A program made the translations under genes and the position numbers. This document shows, one piece after another, positions 40,160-54,486 of a DNA stretch of 64,000 bases (position 1 is its first letter; the number at the start of each line of letters is the position of its first letter). The notes under the pieces are model-generated. The model did not search any database. It saw only the letters and a program-made list of their open reading frames with translations, and was not told the origin of the DNA. The DNA is from an uncultured Bacteroidales bacterium. GTDB taxonomy: Bacteria > Bacteroidota > Bacteroidia > Bacteroidales > P3. The stretch spans positions 44,338-108,337 of the forward strand of contig ONJQ01000005.1 in the NCBI GenBank assembly GCA_900318175.1, given 5' to 3'.

Positions 40160-41319
40160 ATGAAAAAGACAAAATCTATCTTGTGGGGTGGCAACCCTTT
40201 TGTGGAAATCAGACCTGCCTCAAGCGATGGCAGGTGTAAACTGCGACTCGTAACACTGGTTGGCAGGGAAAAATTGGATAACGGAAAGTACAAACAGATA
40301 CGGAGATATGAAACAACACCCCTCTATCTGTGGAACAAATCAAACCTCTCATCTTTTGAAAGAGAACATAACCGTACCGTCAAAGAGGCTGCAAAAAAAT
40401 TACGGGAAAAAAGAGAGCGTGAACTTCAAACCATGAAGAACGGATATGAATTTGTGGAGGACAGAAAAAAAGTAAACTTCTTCGAATGGTTTGAAGATTA
40501 TATCGCAGACTACGATAAAGCGGACAAGCGCGTTATGGAAATGGCATTGAAACGTTTCAAGTCGTTCATATCCTCCAGCAAGAAATACGACATGTTCAAG
40601 GACACAATCAATCCCGACCAAATCACGGAAGAACTAATAAGCGGTTTTGTGGCTCGGCTCAAAAAAGACTGTAGGGGAACGGGAGCTGCATCAGTGTATA
40701 AGAGGTTTAAAAAGGCAGTAAAGTACGCAACAAAAAAACACATATTTCTCTCCAATCCTGTGATGGCATTTCCATAAAAGAAGATGACGGAAAAAGATTA
40801 CTGAAAGATGTGCTGACAGATGATGAAATAATAACTCTTCTACATTGCAGGTATGAAGGACAAAGTGAAGAAGTACGAAGAGCCTTTATTTTCTGTCTAT
40901 ATACGGGACTTCGTTTCTGTGACGTAAAGGAATTGCGGTATGTGAATATGGACTATAACGGGATGCAGCTCACCTTTAGACAAAGCAAAACTGGGAAAAT
41001 AAATGTTGTGCCTATCCGTGAAGATTTACTGCCTGTTATCGGTGATGGAGAAAGTAATAGTCCTATCTTTCGTCTTGGCTCTGCCAACGGCTGTAACAAG
41101 TCGCTCCAACATTGGGTAGCCCGTGCTGGCATTGACAAACATATAACTTGGCATTGCGCCCGCCACTCATTCGGTGCGAACACCTATTACAAACTCAAAG
41201 ACCTACGAGCCACAAGTGAACTATTAGGGCATTCGTCCACCAAGATAACACAGGTTTATACGCAAGTGTTTGATGTCAGAAAACGTGAATTAGTCAATAG
41301 TCTGCCCGCAATCGAATAA
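40160..41319 (+). pseudogene. int: Tyrosine recombinase/integrase, frameshifted
   Basis: Two frames read as one protein of about 386 residues. The first (40160-40777) holds the N-terminal arm-binding region and SAM-like core-binding domain and ends early at NPVMAFP-stop. The second holds the catalytic domain and can be read from about 40767 (ISIKEDDGKRLLKDVLTDDE). A single missing base near 40764-40766 (GATGGCATT, probably once GATGGGCATT) explains the break. All catalytic residues are present: Arg in TGLRFCDV, HCARH (H-x-x-R), LGHSS and the Tyr in ITQVYTQV. A sequencing error is possible; otherwise the element cannot excise itself without help. Confidence 0.85.
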
Positions 41320-43225: not shown

Positions 43226-44074
43226 TTAGTACTCTTGCATTTGTTCCCCATAGTCTTGATAGTCTTCCAACTCTTCCAAAAATCCATCCCAATACTCTTC
43301 TATACATTTTTCCTCATTAGGCTCAATCATCATCCTAAGAAATGCTTCCCAATTATCAACAATTCCCAACTCCAAGCTTTTATTATAGTATTTCAAAAAT
43401 CCTTTATTTGTCTGAATGCTCTTTTTGAAATCCAAGAAAGTGCCAGTATTAACTCCCGCATCACGCAAACCAATATACAGCCATGCGATATTATCCAAGT
43501 TCCATTGTACGAGACACGTGTCATTGATAGCAAATCGGTTGCGTATTGTATCTTGTTTTTTTCGCATAGCTGATTTAACAGCCAGATAGTCATTGGGTAA
43601 ATAACCATTCTCAGACAAAACATCCATGAATTTACTAGAAAAGGTACTGCCATTGATAAAGCTCTGGTAAGTTTCAAAATCACCCCACGAATTTATGCCC
43701 ATAATGCACAATGTTCTGTATTCTTCTCTAAGACGCTCTATCTTTTCTCTAAGACGCTCTATCTTTTCCTTTTGCTCCTCTTTGTATTTTCTGACATAAT
43801 TAAGGATTTTCCCATAATCATCAGAATTTATGCACTCCCTGCATATATGGTTCCAATGTTCGTTAGTATTATCCATTAGTTTGCAAAAATCATCAATACC
43901 CATGTCTGCAATAAACTTATCTCCAATCTTAGGGCAGTCATAGCATGAATGAATAATGTTTTTATCATCTATAAAGAACTTGCGGTTCTCTAACTTTTCA
44001 AATTTACTACTTTTTGTTGAGCAAGAAAGCAGAAGTGCGGAAAAGGCAAATGCTATTATGGTGTTTATTTTCAT
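43226..44074 (-). CDS. Lipoprotein with Cys/His motif and coiled coil
   Basis: 282 residues; lipoprotein signal IAFAFSALLLSCS. Residues about 30-85 carry FFIDDKNIIHSCYDCPKIG and, after 35 residues, HICRECI, related to the module in 42874-43176. Residues about 95-120 form a charged helix with an exact internal repeat EKIERLRE-KIERLRE (coded by a 21-bp DNA repeat at about 43731-43768). The C-terminal 150 residues are helical with no known match. Leader: the folded RNA candidate at 44201-44400 and promoter at 44483 lie upstream. Confidence 0.65.
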   Translation of the reverse strand: MKINTIIAFAFSALLLSCSTKSSKFEKLENRKFFIDDKNIIHSCYDCPKIGDKFIADMGIDDFCKLMDNTNEHWNHICRECINSDDYGKILNYVRKYKEEQKEKIERLREKIERLREEYRTLCIMGINSWGDFETYQSFINGSTFSSKFMDVLSENGYLPNDYLAVKSAMRKKQDTIRNRFAINDTCLVQWNLDNIAWLYIGLRDAGVNTGTFLDFKKSIQTNKGFLKYYNKSLELGIVDNWEAFLRMMIEPNEEKCIEEYWDGFLEELEDYQDYGEQMQEY

Positions 44075-44200
44075 TGTTTTTTACTTTTTTTTGGGGGGGC
44101 AATTACTTTTGTCGAGTTCTATGCAATCAAACAGGATGTAATAAGAAAAAAACATTTTCATAAGAATTAATGTAATAATCTAATCTCTGTTTAATCGTAA

Positions 44201-44400
44201 GCTACTTATCGAGGGGGCATGTGGCTAGACACCTACAAATACGAAGAAAGCGTGGAACGCTTATTGGCATCCGAGGTACTTGGTCTGACCCGCATCCCCT
44301 AATAAGTTTATTGTGTCCACGCTTAGCGCAGACGCTTGAAACTTATTCGGAGGATGCACTCTATTAACGACCAAGTTTTCGGAATGCCTCGAAAAGTAGC
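44201..44400 (-). ncRNA. Large folded RNA candidate in the mobile element
   Basis: Nested helices readable by eye (plus-strand positions): GCTACTT/AAGTAGC (44201-44207, 44394-44400) and CGAGG/CCTCG (44210-44214, 44387-44391); GGCATCCGA/TCGGAATGCC (44266-44274, 44379-44388, one bulge); ACTTGGTC/GACCAAGT (44278-44285, 44369-44376); GCATCC..AATAAGTTT/AAACTTATT..GGATGC (44292-44309, 44339-44357). AAGCGTGGA (44248-44256) can pair with TCCACGCTT (44316-44324) as a 9-bp pseudoknot, or fold locally as AAGCGT/ACGCTT. A minus-strand promoter at 44483-44490 points into it. The rest of 44075-44667 holds no gene. Confidence 0.65.
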
Positions 44401-44482
44401 AAACGCTATATTTATAATTTATTATTTTTCTATTTGTCTATATGTTGTTTTGATTAATAACTATTGTTGTTGTTTGACGGTG

Positions 44483-44490
44483 CAAAGATA
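44483..44490 (-). promoter_or_regulatory. -7 box upstream of the folded RNA
   Basis: TATCTTTG then CA on the minus strand, 83 bases before the first base of the folded region. Confidence 0.65.
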
Positions 44491-44667
44491 CGTGTTTTTT
44501 TTGAAATACGAATAAAGGTTACTTAATAATCTTAGTTAGCCTATCGTGCTATCTTCACATTATATGCCTGATTGTTGCAATAATCGCCCATATCCTCGCA
44601 TCAACAGCTTTCGGGGCGTAGTCCTTGCCACGTTCCGCATGGTCGTTGCGTGTATTGCGTTTCTCGG

Positions 44668-45186: not shown

Positions 45187-45336
45187 CTACTGCTCCATTT
45201 TCTTCTGCTGCATCAGCTTCTCCGTTTCTTCGTTCACCATTTTGGCTAACGTCAGTCTCGGCACTTTCTTTCCGTTCAGTCGTTTCAGCACCCTGTTGCT
45301 AGCAATTGCCAGCATTTGTTTCTGCTCTTCGTTCAT
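45187..45336 (-). CDS. Small hypothetical protein, paralogue 2 of a tandem pair
   Basis: 49 residues from the ATG at 45334-45336, chosen to align with the MNEQQKQ start of the neighbour at 45142. The start lies inside the end of the MuF-C gene (38-base overlap). A two-helix layout is likely. Function unknown; a partner or immunity role towards the MuF-C protein is only a thought. Confidence 0.5.
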   Translation of the reverse strand: MNEEQKQMLAIASNRVLKRLNGKKVPRLTLAKMVNEETEKLMQQKKMEQ

Positions 45337-46246
45337 TGTCTTGTGGTATTTTTTTTCTATAACGTTCGTTTCTCTCGTATAGTATGACCGTATTGTAATA
45401 TTCCTCAGCATTCATGCCGAATAACACAGGCTCCTCCTCCCCACGGAAACGCAAATTATTGTCGCTCTTCTGATACTTTACTCTATTTTTTTCTCTCTCT
45501 GTGTCAATGTTTTCCGAAAAACTTTCCCTTGAAATTTGCGGGTTTTCAAAATTATTTAGTATCTTTGCAACCGAAAGTTCTTGATTAGTTAAGGAGGGCG
45601 ACCCCTTGGGAGGGTCTAATCCGAGCCAATCAAGGACTTTCTTTTTATCCCCAATATAACGTAGTGCGTTAGCAAGTCCACCGCCCTTTGCGTTATTCAT
45701 TTCGTTTATGAAATACTCCGCCTCTTTGCCGTGTACACTTGCAATTTCGTTCACTTCAGCACGTTTTCCTTGTCGCTCTAATTTAATTGCTGCCGTTATC
45801 TTGCGTCCGTCAGAAGTAGTTAGTTCTGTAATGACTATCAAAGACTTTGCCTGTGTACCCCACTCATAAACCATAAGAGGGTTGCTCATTGCTTTGGGTA
45901 AGTCCTTAATATCCTCTATTGTCAGTCCGTGCTTGTTAAGATGCTCCCGTAGTACACGGGGTTTGATAAACATTTCAGTGCTATCAATCCCACAGGCTCG
46001 TAGTATTCTGCTCGGATAGCCAAGATGCAAGTTCCCTCGTTCGCCTTTGTCAAACGCCTCTAATTCCTCATTAAACCGCGCGTTCACCGCCTCAATCTCG
46101 TTGTTCGGATTAACCCCTCCCACCAAGTCAGCCAGCACCATGTCCGCGTAGTCCTCTTTGCTCTTGTCCTCGGCAATCTTGCCGCCAAACAACGCCCTCG
46201 CAGCGTCCCAAAACTTCCGTAGTGCATCGCGCAAGGTCTCAAACAT
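45299..46246 (-). CDS. MuF-C-like domain protein, fragment of a polyvalent protein
   Basis: 315 residues from the ATG at 46244-46246. The N-terminus FETLRDALRKFWDAARALFG, then YADMVLADLVGGVNP, is a linker type seen in very large polyvalent proteins of Bacteroidetes conjugative elements and phages. Residues about 75-205 (LHLGYPSRILRACGI, LREHLNKHGLTIEDIKDLP, SNPLMVYEWGTQAKSLIVIT, AAIKLERQGKRAEVNEIASV) fit the phage MuF-C domain, thought to be a toxin or nuclease-like module. Here it stands alone and is short. A plus-strand small-RNA candidate (45573-45646) is encoded opposite its codons for residues about 200-224. Confidence 0.65.
   Translation of the reverse strand: MFETLRDALRKFWDAARALFGGKIAEDKSKEDYADMVLADLVGGVNPNNEIEAVNARFNEELEAFDKGERGNLHLGYPSRILRACGIDSTEMFIKPRVLREHLNKHGLTIEDIKDLPKAMSNPLMVYEWGTQAKSLIVITELTTSDGRKITAAIKLERQGKRAEVNEIASVHGKEAEYFINEMNNAKGGGLANALRYIGDKKKVLDWLGLDPPKGSPSLTNQELSVAKILNNFENPQISRESFSENIDTEREKNRVKYQKSDNNLRFRGEEEPVLFGMNAEEYYNTVILYERNERYRKKIPQDNERRAETNAGNC
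45560..45567 (+). promoter_or_regulatory. Antisense promoter inside the MuF-C gene
   Basis: TATCTTTG with TTTG 21 bases upstream (45535-45538), which fits both the -33 and -7 consensus and their spacing in Bacteroidetes. Confidence 0.65.
45573..45646 (+). ncRNA. Antisense small RNA candidate with terminator hairpin
   Basis: Starts 6 bases after the -7 box. GAAAGTTCTTGATT (45573-45586) pairs with AATCAAGGACTTTC (45628-45641) over 14 bp with one G-U, closed by inner pairs such as AAGG/CCTT (45591-45594, 45604-45607), and is followed by TTTTTAT. GATTAG/CTAATC gives an alternative inner stem. The product would be about 70-75 nt, opposite the MuF-C coding strand. Confidence 0.6.
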
Positions 46247-46317
46247 GGCAATCACCTTTGCCTTGCCTACGACAATAAAGAAAGCCCCTATTCGGGGCTA
46301 TTCTGTGCGTGATGGGG

Positions 46318-51330: not shown

Positions 51331-52818
51331 ATGAAAAACAGAATTACTATTAACGCCCTGATATTGGCTGCTATAACCATGTTGGCAGTAAGTTGCAAGA
51401 AAGACTATGAGACCCTCCACGCCGAATTGGTTGACGGTGAGTCTTTCAATAGTACCATTCCAGCGAATGTCACGACCGTGGTGTTTGAATGCAACAATTC
51501 CAGCGTCAGAAGCGGGGTAAGTCTTTCTTCTCCCTCATCGCCCGTTCCCGTCTTTGGAATTTTTGAAGGCCAGGTGTTGAGAGTCATCACCTGGGCAGGT
51601 TTCATTGATGCCAATCCCAACAGTGGAAAGATGTTCTATAACCGTTCTAAGTTGACTTCCATAGATTTCGGTAAAGGATTCAACACCTCCAATGTGACCG
51701 ACATGAGTGAAATGTTTCAAGGATGTAGCAAACTGACCGCTCTTGATGTCTCCAATTTCAACACCTCCAACGTGACCGACATGAGTGAAATGTTTCAAGG
51801 ATGTAGCAAACTGACAGCTCTTGATGTCTCCAGCTTCAACACTTCTAATGTAAATAGTATGGCTGCCATGTTCAAGTCGTGCAGTGGTTTGACCGGCCTT
51901 GATGTCTCCAGTTTCAGAACCTCGAATGTGACCGATATGCATGATATGTTTCGAGGGTGTAATAAACTGACAAGTCTTAATGTTTCGAGCTTCAACACCT
52001 CCAATGTCAAACGCATGGATGCCATGTTTTATGGCTGTAGTGGCTTGACAAGCCTTGATGTCTCCAATTTCAACACCTCCAATGTCGTCAGGATGACCAG
52101 AACTGTAGATACGGTATTAAATTACTATACTGGTTATAGCAGTGGTGAAGAGGTTCAAATCCCGGAATCTAATAAATTGATACGGTTCGGTATGTTTGCC
52201 CAATGCAGCAGTCTTACAAGCCTCGACCTTTCCAGCTTCAACACCTCCCAAGTGACCGACATGCGTGGACTGTTTGAAGGATGTAAGAAACTGACAAGCC
52301 TGAATGTCTCCAGCTTCAACACCTCGAATGTAAAATACATGGATGGCATGTTTAAGGATTGCAGTAGTTTGACGAGCCTTGACCTCACCAATTTCAACAC
52401 TTCTAATGTTGTTTCCATGGGCACTGTGCATCGTTTTTTTTATAATTGGGGCTCTGCGGGTCAATATGGAAATTACCGTTATGAGGCAAATGGCGGTATG
52501 TTTGAGAATTGCACTGGTTTGACAAGCCTTGACCTCTCCAATTTCAACACCTCTAATGTGACCCGTATGTATAATATGTTCAATAATTGCACCCACTTGA
52601 CATATCTCAACCTTTCCATTTTTGATATGAGTCATCTGGAGGTTACCGATTATGATATTACTTATACAGGGAAAGAGGAAATGTGTTGGAAACTGGCTTC
52701 TGCTTCGGGCAGTTGTACCATCGTTTGTACACAGTCGGTACAAAACAGTCTGTTGAATGGCACAAGTATTCCCGCGGGTCAGGTGACCTTCACATGGGTG
52801 AGACCTACATCCAAGTAA
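51331..52818 (+). CDS. DUF285 (BspA-like) repeat lipoprotein
   Basis: 495 residues; lipoprotein signal ITINALILAAITMLAVSC. After a short domain (HAELVDGESFNSTIPANVTT) shared with the 28675 and 53338 proteins come ten 26-residue repeats (NFNTSNVTDMSEMFQGCSKL then TALDVS). Two of the ten carry insertions of about 25-30 residues after the NVVxM position. It closes with CTIVCTQSVQNSLLNGTS and VTFTWVRPTSK. Expected at the cell surface as an adhesin. A two-stem REP element follows at 52852. Confidence 0.87.
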   Translation: MKNRITINALILAAITMLAVSCKKDYETLHAELVDGESFNSTIPANVTTVVFECNNSSVRSGVSLSSPSSPVPVFGIFEGQVLRVITWAGFIDANPNSGKMFYNRSKLTSIDFGKGFNTSNVTDMSEMFQGCSKLTALDVSNFNTSNVTDMSEMFQGCSKLTALDVSSFNTSNVNSMAAMFKSCSGLTGLDVSSFRTSNVTDMHDMFRGCNKLTSLNVSSFNTSNVKRMDAMFYGCSGLTSLDVSNFNTSNVVRMTRTVDTVLNYYTGYSSGEEVQIPESNKLIRFGMFAQCSSLTSLDLSSFNTSQVTDMRGLFEGCKKLTSLNVSSFNTSNVKYMDGMFKDCSSLTSLDLTNFNTSNVVSMGTVHRFFYNWGSAGQYGNYRYEANGGMFENCTGLTSLDLSNFNTSNVTRMYNMFNNCTHLTYLNLSIFDMSHLEVTDYDITYTGKEEMCWKLASASGSCTIVCTQSVQNSLLNGTSIPAGQVTFTWVRPTSK

Positions 52819-53337: not shown

Positions 53338-54486
53338 ATGAAAAACAAAATTACTATTAACACCCTGATATTGGCTGCAATAACCCTGTTGGCAGTGAGC
53401 TGCAAGAAAGACTATGAGACCCTCCACGCCGAATTGGTTGACGGTGAGACTTTCAATAGTACCATTCCAGCGAATGCCACATCTGTGGTATTTGAATGCA
53501 ACAATTCCTATCACAGAAACCGTATTAATCTTTCTTCACCTTCATCGCCAGTTCCTGTCTATGGACATTTAGAAGGCGAAGTGTGGTATGTCACCACCCG
53601 GGCCGGTTTCCTTGATGCCAATCCCAATAGTAGAAAGATGTTCTGTAATTGTTCAAAGTTGACCTCCATCAAGTTTGGCAATGGCTTCAACACCTCCAAT
53701 GTAGAACACATGGATGCCATGTTTTATGGCTGCAGTGGCTTGACGAGCCTTGATGTCTCCAATTTCAACACCTCCAATGTCGTCTCCATGTCCTATGCTG
53801 TAGATTCAGTTTTTTACTCTACTGCCCCAGATGGACGACGATACAAATGGTACAATAAATATATGCTAATGGGTATGTTCGCCGGTTGTAGCAGTCTCAC
53901 AAGTCTCGACCTTTCCAGTTTCAACACCTCCCAAGTGACCGACATGCGTGGACTCTTTGATGGGTGTAAGAATCTGACAAGCCTAAATGTATCCAACTTC
54001 AACACCTCGAATGTAAAACACATGGATGCCATGTTTAGGGGTTGCAGCAGATTGACAAGCCTTGACCTCTCCAATTTCAACACCTCCAATGTCGTTTCCA
54101 TGAGCTATAGGGTTAAGGTATTCCGCAACAACGGTTCGTGGGGACAGAGGCCAGGCAGTGGTTATAATTGGGATGGCGGCATGTTTATGAATTGCAATAG
54201 TTTGACAAGCCTCGACCTTTCCAATTTCAACACTTCGAATGTGACCTGTATGTGTAAGCTGTTCTGCAATTGCACCCATTTGACATTCCTCGACCTTTCC
54301 AATTTCGATATGACCTTGACAAATGGTTTCTCCCAGAAACAGGATATGTGTAGTGGATTGTCTACATCTTCGGGAGTCTGCACCATCGTTTGTACAGAGT
54401 CGGTACAAAACAGTCTCTTAGATAATAATGGTTACATTACAGGTATTCCCGTCGACGAGGTGACGTTCACCTGGGTGAGACCTTAG
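53338..54486 (+). CDS. DUF285 (BspA-like) repeat lipoprotein, shorter paralogue
   Basis: 382 residues; signal ITINTLILAAITLLAVSC. Same leading domain (AELVDGETFNSTIPANATS) and closing VTFTWVRP as the 51331 protein, but only six DUF285 repeats. Two of these have insertions of about 25 residues after NVVSM (AVDSVFYSTAPDGRRYKWY and KVFRNNGSWGQRPGSGYNW). The upstream DNA from about 52984 copies 51177-51330, so gene and promoter were duplicated together, then the MITE entered. Confidence 0.87.
   Translation: MKNKITINTLILAAITLLAVSCKKDYETLHAELVDGETFNSTIPANATSVVFECNNSYHRNRINLSSPSSPVPVYGHLEGEVWYVTTRAGFLDANPNSRKMFCNCSKLTSIKFGNGFNTSNVEHMDAMFYGCSGLTSLDVSNFNTSNVVSMSYAVDSVFYSTAPDGRRYKWYNKYMLMGMFAGCSSLTSLDLSSFNTSQVTDMRGLFDGCKNLTSLNVSNFNTSNVKHMDAMFRGCSRLTSLDLSNFNTSNVVSMSYRVKVFRNNGSWGQRPGSGYNWDGGMFMNCNSLTSLDLSNFNTSNVTCMCKLFCNCTHLTFLDLSNFDMTLTNGFSQKQDMCSGLSTSSGVCTIVCTESVQNSLLDNNGYITGIPVDEVTFTWVRP

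Follow-up and report, generated by a model that had tools for sequence, protein, structure and literature searches.

The window analysed here, a 64,000-nt stretch of contig ONJQ01000005.1 from an uncultured Bacteroidales bacterium, carries on its minus strand a structured element that an initial annotation had described as a candidate RNA of about 200 nt within a tRNA-Arg mobile element. A promoter-like box precedes it and a gene for a lipoprotein-like protein follows it; the four window proteins behind the element matched no Pfam family. We propose, with moderate confidence, that the element belongs to a phylum-wide family of structured 5′ leaders, of which one subfamily stands before many unrelated types of restriction-modification (R-M) operon and acts as a strand-exchange attenuator. 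Its parts in the window are the following.

44490-44483, minus: −7-like promoter box TATCTTTG
44195-44410, minus: structured leader RNA, the whole conserved element as alignable in the window
44397-44408, minus: segment A1, a near-invariant 5′ hairpin (UAGC-GUUU-GCUA), also complementary to the leader 3′ end
44394-44400 with 44201-44207, minus: outer helix GCUACUU/AAGUAGC
44379-44388 with 44266-44274, minus: segment B, helix B:I GGCAUUCCGA/UCGGAUGCC; changes on both sides in 4 of 4 counted pairs
44369-44376 with H at 44278-44285, minus: segment C, helix C:H ACUUGGUC/GACCAAGU; changes on both sides in 6 of 7 counted pairs
44349-44357 with 44292-44300, minus: segment D, variable inner helix D:G GCAUCCUCC/AGGGGAUGC; strongest cognate signal (z −33)
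44340-44347 with F at 44301-44308, minus: segment E, helix E:F AAUAAGUU/AACUUAUU, stacked on D:G; co-variation
44326-44335, minus: segment S1 (GCGUCUGCGC), partner of S2; pairing in 100% of cells over 8 counted pairs
44316-44324, minus: segment S2 (AAGCGUGGA...), partner of S1 or alternatively of S4; S1:S2 and S2:S4 both co-vary
44248-44256, minus: segment S4 (UCCACGCUU), alternative partner of S2 or S3; a U-rich stretch comes next
44210-44247, minus: segment Y, degenerate in the window copy; in relatives it displaces C:H and is paired to X and H
43226-44074, minus: first gene now behind the leader, a 282-aa lipoprotein-like protein without a Pfam match

Folding of the minus strand between 44195 and 44405 gave −84.8 kcal/mol, compared with −52.5 ± 3.9 for shuffled sequences (z −8.2; 0 of 200 shuffles as good), and the longer stretch 44190-44480 gave z −6.6. 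The plus strand likewise folds well (z −5.7) because the element is an inverted repeat. The pairing beyond chance and the nested helices reported in the initial annotation are thus borne out: every helix it named is present and forms on the minus strand, where the central hairpin is GUCUGCGC/GCGUGGAC. The competing pseudoknot helix that it had suggested, AAGCGUGGA/UCCACGCUU, is also found, joining 44316-44324 to 44248-44256. Homologues retain G·U wobbles on the minus strand (U·G in 58/67 and G·U in 64/67 at two adjacent pairs); as these would be A·C mismatches on the opposite strand, the minus-strand RNA is probably the functional form. The −7 box had been placed correctly on this strand, pointing into the RNA, and TATCTTTG is of the Bacteroidota TAnnTTTG type. 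The element is longer than first noted, since in relatives conserved pairing partners extend to the start codon.

Of 148 related genomes searched at the DNA level, 7 contained matches, among them the window's own genome. The closest, G021, shares 85% identity along 287 nt, followed by G088 with 81% along 192 nt. A three-block pattern derived from these occurred in 14 of the 120 genus members scanned, with 0 reversed controls, and in at least 119 stretches of named genome contigs; among the matches listed, the contigs bearing it came from Prevotella, Porphyromonas, Bacteroides, Alloprevotella, Parabacteroides, Paludibacteraceae and others, and viral contigs yielded 1 match (L148). A strict two-block pattern alone matched 13 times in one genome and 10 times in a second, and its reversed form gave none. 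A covariance model of 67 dereplicated cores detected the leader in 134 of 393 genomes drawn from the order (83 of 206 genera) and in 31 of 395 drawn from the phylum; the covariance searches scored 7 candidates per genome, so that copy numbers are lower bounds. Covariance model R1 matched the window element over positions 1-173 (E 8.7e-24), and the window's own genome has two further copies, both divergent, at G000:C36:124061-124227 (E 1.3e-7) and C64:4078-4251 (E 3.0e-7). Additional matches were also seen: 110-nt second model matches lying upstream of the main copy by some 1.1 kb (L041:6588-6697 and L145:7319-7428), a second, weak same-strand match in 2 of 20 other stretches (L225, L240), and many model matches no more than a few hundred bases away from a contig end in G591, G104, G684 and G135, as if leader or flanks were repeated there.

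The gene content behind the leader was compared in three sets. After removal of 5 of 120 pattern places for identical cores, 6 of the remaining 115 (L041, L071, L073, L110, L113, L148) had no open reading frame (ORF) under the rule used, leaving 109, or 107 when L030 and L087 were omitted. From 42 distant places, 36 remained without L173 and 5 places lacking an ORF. The order-wide model search contributed 69 further loci, 67 of them with an ORF; the start anchor was misplaced in 6/69. A few matches lay on the opposite strand of the same loci. In the subfamily of the window element, the first genes fall into nine R-M BLAST clusters in 96/109 loci. Pfam assigned the 107 first genes, with overlapping membership, to MmeI methylase (26), EcoRI methylase (18), N6_Mtase (14), N6_N4_Mtase (12), HsdR N-terminus (9), D12 methylase (8), Eco57I (6), C5 methylase (5) and ResIII (4), and PADLOC agreed on the same genes, reporting R-M types I, II, IIG and III. 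Two further first genes appear to be related (L096, Mrr and ResIII; L144, a PAPS reductase with weak DndC similarity), and the exceptions include lipoprotein-like, PAP2, MBOAT, SIR2 and hexapeptide proteins. On the upstream side (n = 86), no R-M methylase was among the 25 of 145 families listed; YhcG-type nucleases occurred in 5 neighbours. The association with R-M genes is a trait of the subfamily in which S1 is GYCUGCGC, not of the whole superfamily. Within it, a tree of 96 leaders requires no fewer than 38 changes of R-M type (shuffled labels 57.4 ± 2.2, minimum 51 in 200), and leaders 80–84% alike bear different R-M types. In part, leader and gene travel together, and they are often re-paired.

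The position of the element is that of a leader. A TAnnTTTG box lies at most 170 nt upstream in 86 of 109 homologues whose upstream sequence was long enough, compared with 12 of 104 control stretches taken 200 nt further up, and in 102 of the 109 loci with an ORF the start codon follows GCGTTTGCT by 200–270 nt. Together with the co-varying, competing helices described below, the upstream promoter-like box and the fixed start-codon distance point to a cis-regulatory leader RNA. Of the initial proposal of a 5′ regulatory RNA for a secreted-protein operon, the leader is supported, whereas a link to that operon, or to the tRNA-Arg element in particular, is not: the usual partners of the subfamily are R-M genes (96/109) and the window copy is an orphan. 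Members standing before TonB receptor genes (L175, L176, L181, L183, L186, L187) carry an extra long hairpin of the GGCCCTCT...AGAGGACC type between leader and ATG, about 60–80 nt before the start codon.

We examined the helices in an alignment of 114 rows (the window included; L071 and L113 omitted as too short), reduced to 67 rows by excluding L030, L129 and L148 and removing near-identical rows. The initial annotation had named covariation as a check on the fold, and the helices do co-vary: across the 67 homologues 96.8% of cells are paired, against 82.9% in shuffled and 25–46% in slid alignments, and substituting S2:S4 for S1:S2 gives 96.1%. Under a tree-aware null (60 simulations, 114 sequences), 9 column pairs reached E ≤ 0.033; standard pairs predominate in 7 of these, and 6 of the 7 lie in helices B:I and C:H. 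Cognate compared with shuffled duplexes (65 sequences, without L073 and L110) gave z values of −33 for D:G, −21 for B:I, −17 for C:H, −14 for X:Y, −9 for S2:S4 and H:Y, and −7 for S1:S2 and S3:S4. Mutually exclusive helices are thus each backed by co-variation. A U-rich stretch (at least 5 T in 10 nt) follows S4 in 107/114 sequences. When 64 leaders (L072 also omitted) were folded with pseudoknots excluded, C:H was predicted in 63 of those cut at the U-run and in 4 full leaders, and X:Y in 0 and 59, respectively.

The family appears to be undescribed, within the reach of Rfam 15 and open PubMed Central. At gathering threshold, Rfam release 15 returned only tRNA in the whole window, and at E up to 5 it returned 0 matches in 44050-44550, in keeping with the earlier impression that no known RNA family is involved. 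In 18 distant loci at gathering threshold rteR alone was found, elsewhere in L178 and L188, and with E relaxed to 1, a scan of 6 loci gave two weak matches, both outside the leader. The rteR small-RNA matches (RF04181) lie at L178:39-121 and L188:1492-1572, in stretches that also bear a leader copy. Openly licensed PubMed Central papers, preprints not included, contained no description of this RNA that we could find. Riboswitches and attenuators share with it a 5′ leader, a conserved core, competing helices, a U-rich stretch, a variable 3′ expression part and several copies per genome; unlike theirs, the genes here have no common metabolism, and size and strand exchange are unlike any Rfam family searched. 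C-protein control likewise regulates R-M gene expression, but is based on a protein and an operator. Among known systems, the nearest precedent that we found is a transcriptional attenuator at the pneumococcal tvr (SpnIV) restriction locus, described in PMC6265443 as a simple hairpin that has five U and precedes the recombinase gene tvrR. It likewise limits transcription at an R-M locus through a terminator-like hairpin. As portrayed there, however, tvr concerns one species, whereas the present leader is about 215 nt long, pseudoknotted, placed before the methylase or restriction gene itself and spread over many Bacteroidota genera. The portion consulted of a list of 104 candidate RNAs (PMC2864571) includes the Bacteroidetes motifs Bacteroidales-1, Bacteroides-1, Flavo-1, Bacteroid-trp and 6S-flavo, likewise phylum-specific structured RNAs; those given RF numbers are in Rfam and had no match to the leader, and Bacteroides-2 and GUCCY-hairpin, which carry no RF number in that portion, fall outside the Rfam comparison.

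The attenuator reading is based on homology, structure, co-varying competing helices, leader position and gene association. In the mechanism we envisage, RNA polymerase would start about 50–110 nt upstream of the leader, and the nested fold (B:I, C:H, D:G, E:F and S1:S2) would be made first. On emerging, S4 would pair with S3 to give a terminator-like hairpin adjoining the U-run; alternatively, S2 would capture S4 in a pseudoknot and S1:S2 would open. Once the polymerase was beyond the U-run, Y would draw X and H off C, and the leader 3′ end, immediately ahead of the start codon, would then pair with the 5′ hairpin. The choice of branch would set the amount of R-M mRNA, with the U-run terminating, S2:S4 antiterminating and an outside signal biasing the choice.

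Several observations weigh against this reading. S3:S4 was predicted in only 33/64 leaders cut at the U-run, even though it co-varies, and the fold exchange is a prediction from pseudoknot-free folding. Two of the 9 top co-varying column pairs are not base pairs. An ATG occurs in 32 of 86 stretches between −7 box and RNA, so an upstream peptide may be encoded there. In the window copy S3:S4 is weak (−1.6 kcal/mol, a 6-pair stem), and terminator-like sites number 1 against 0.5 ± 0.6 in shuffles. Predicted start-codon accessibility shifts little (0.45 versus 0.52; lower in 43/62), which lends weak support to a start-codon masking model. Among the R-M first genes, 7/96 (L036 type) have weak methylase similarity, and genes of this type had no domain match (3 scanned with Pfam, 2 with NCBIfam). 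Outside the subfamily the genes are mixed: the 36 distant first genes include TonB plug (11), RibD_C (3) and a reverse transcriptase (1), and the order-wide ones (n = 67) N6_Mtase (6), BspA repeats (4), MmeI (3), HsdR (3), N6_N4 (3), C5 methylase (2) and many single families. The leader family is therefore broader than R-M.

The small accessibility shift also weighs against a translation switch, in which strand exchange would hide or free the ribosome entry region and the U-rich stretch would be structural. We consider this possible, if doubtful: translation control would have no need of a U-rich stretch directly after S4, yet it is kept in nearly all sequences. That the core up to the U-run is best conserved, and suffices to build a covariance model with matches in further families of the phylum, would fit a stable trans-acting small RNA ending at the U-run with the downstream gene as passenger, as would the mixed genes outside the subfamily. 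Such an RNA is nevertheless unlikely, given the conserved partners past the U-run, the fixed start-codon distance and the dominance of R-M genes within the subfamily.

The many R-M type changes on the leader tree, fewer than with shuffled labels, and the different R-M types behind similar leaders could also be explained by a DNA element aiding cassette exchange, the common leader serving as a homology or recombination anchor for swapping R-M genes. The one-strand wobbles and the −7 box indicate an RNA, however, and the copies are dispersed, a second, short copy being present in 2/98 loci searched; we therefore hold this to be quite improbable, and gene exchange behind the leader may be a by-product compatible with the attenuator switch. 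The same 2/98, with the 2 of 20 other stretches noted above, led us to reject a tandem, integron-type array of element and gene. A plasmid- or phage-borne element was likewise set aside, as one query (the L044 leader; blastn distant mode) had no match in annotated plasmid and phage records. Least probable of all is a retron-, guide- or ribozyme-type RNA, which the size, the pseudoknots and one distant member would suggest: L158:1501-1663 (minus) is followed, some 600 nt further on, by a reverse-transcriptase gene on which several PADLOC defence reverse-transcriptase models score. This is the sole such neighbour among the 36 Pfam-scanned distant members, the 25 of 35 families listed for the 107 subfamily genes do not include RVT_1, and diverse genes, no constant protein partner and no Rfam match at E up to 5 speak against the idea. 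The retron- or guide-like RNA of the initial annotation, a retron msr-msd RNA included, accordingly finds no regular reverse transcriptase or RNA-guided nuclease, and nothing was found in favour of its replication or packaging signal, the chromosomal contexts being mixed.

What is known of how bacteria set R-M levels comes mostly from protein regulators, and unbalanced R-M can kill the host. If the attenuator reading is true, one switching RNA before nine unrelated R-M gene types would constitute a shared layer of defence regulation across Bacteroidota, concerning gut, rumen and oral bacteria. More speculatively, and in our view rather unlikely, the leader could be a common Bacteroidota RNA sensor for any newly acquired defence system, holding R-M and accessory genes at a safe level and refolding on a shared physiological signal, such as infection by a phage, the level of nucleotides or of S-adenosylmethionine, or the speed of elongation. 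One RNA class would then coordinate otherwise unrelated immune operons.

The window copy itself is an orphan. In its sister copy in G021 (L062), the leader is followed by MSTINWIGKKRGYH and a stop codon, a 14-codon methylase stub. As MSTINWIGKKRGYH looks like the beginning of a type III methylase (MPTLNWIGK...) that follows the leader in L069 and L046, the window copy most likely lost such a gene. In 95% of relatives C:H is stronger than in the window copy, and in 83% X:Y2 is; its S2:S4 is ordinary, and the predicted minimum of the full-length copy keeps the early nested fold; switching is predicted to be lost. No homologues of the 282-aa protein were confirmed in viral contigs. Elsewhere in the window, the integrase of the tRNA-Arg element is split over two plus-strand ORFs (40160-40777 and 40810-41319; Phage_int_SAM_5 and Phage_integrase), and a phage MuF C-terminal domain protein (45299-46255, minus) lies near other small genes of that element. 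Two similar long proteins with NTSNVTDM-type repeats (51331-52818 and 53338-54486, plus) are probably surface repeat proteins.
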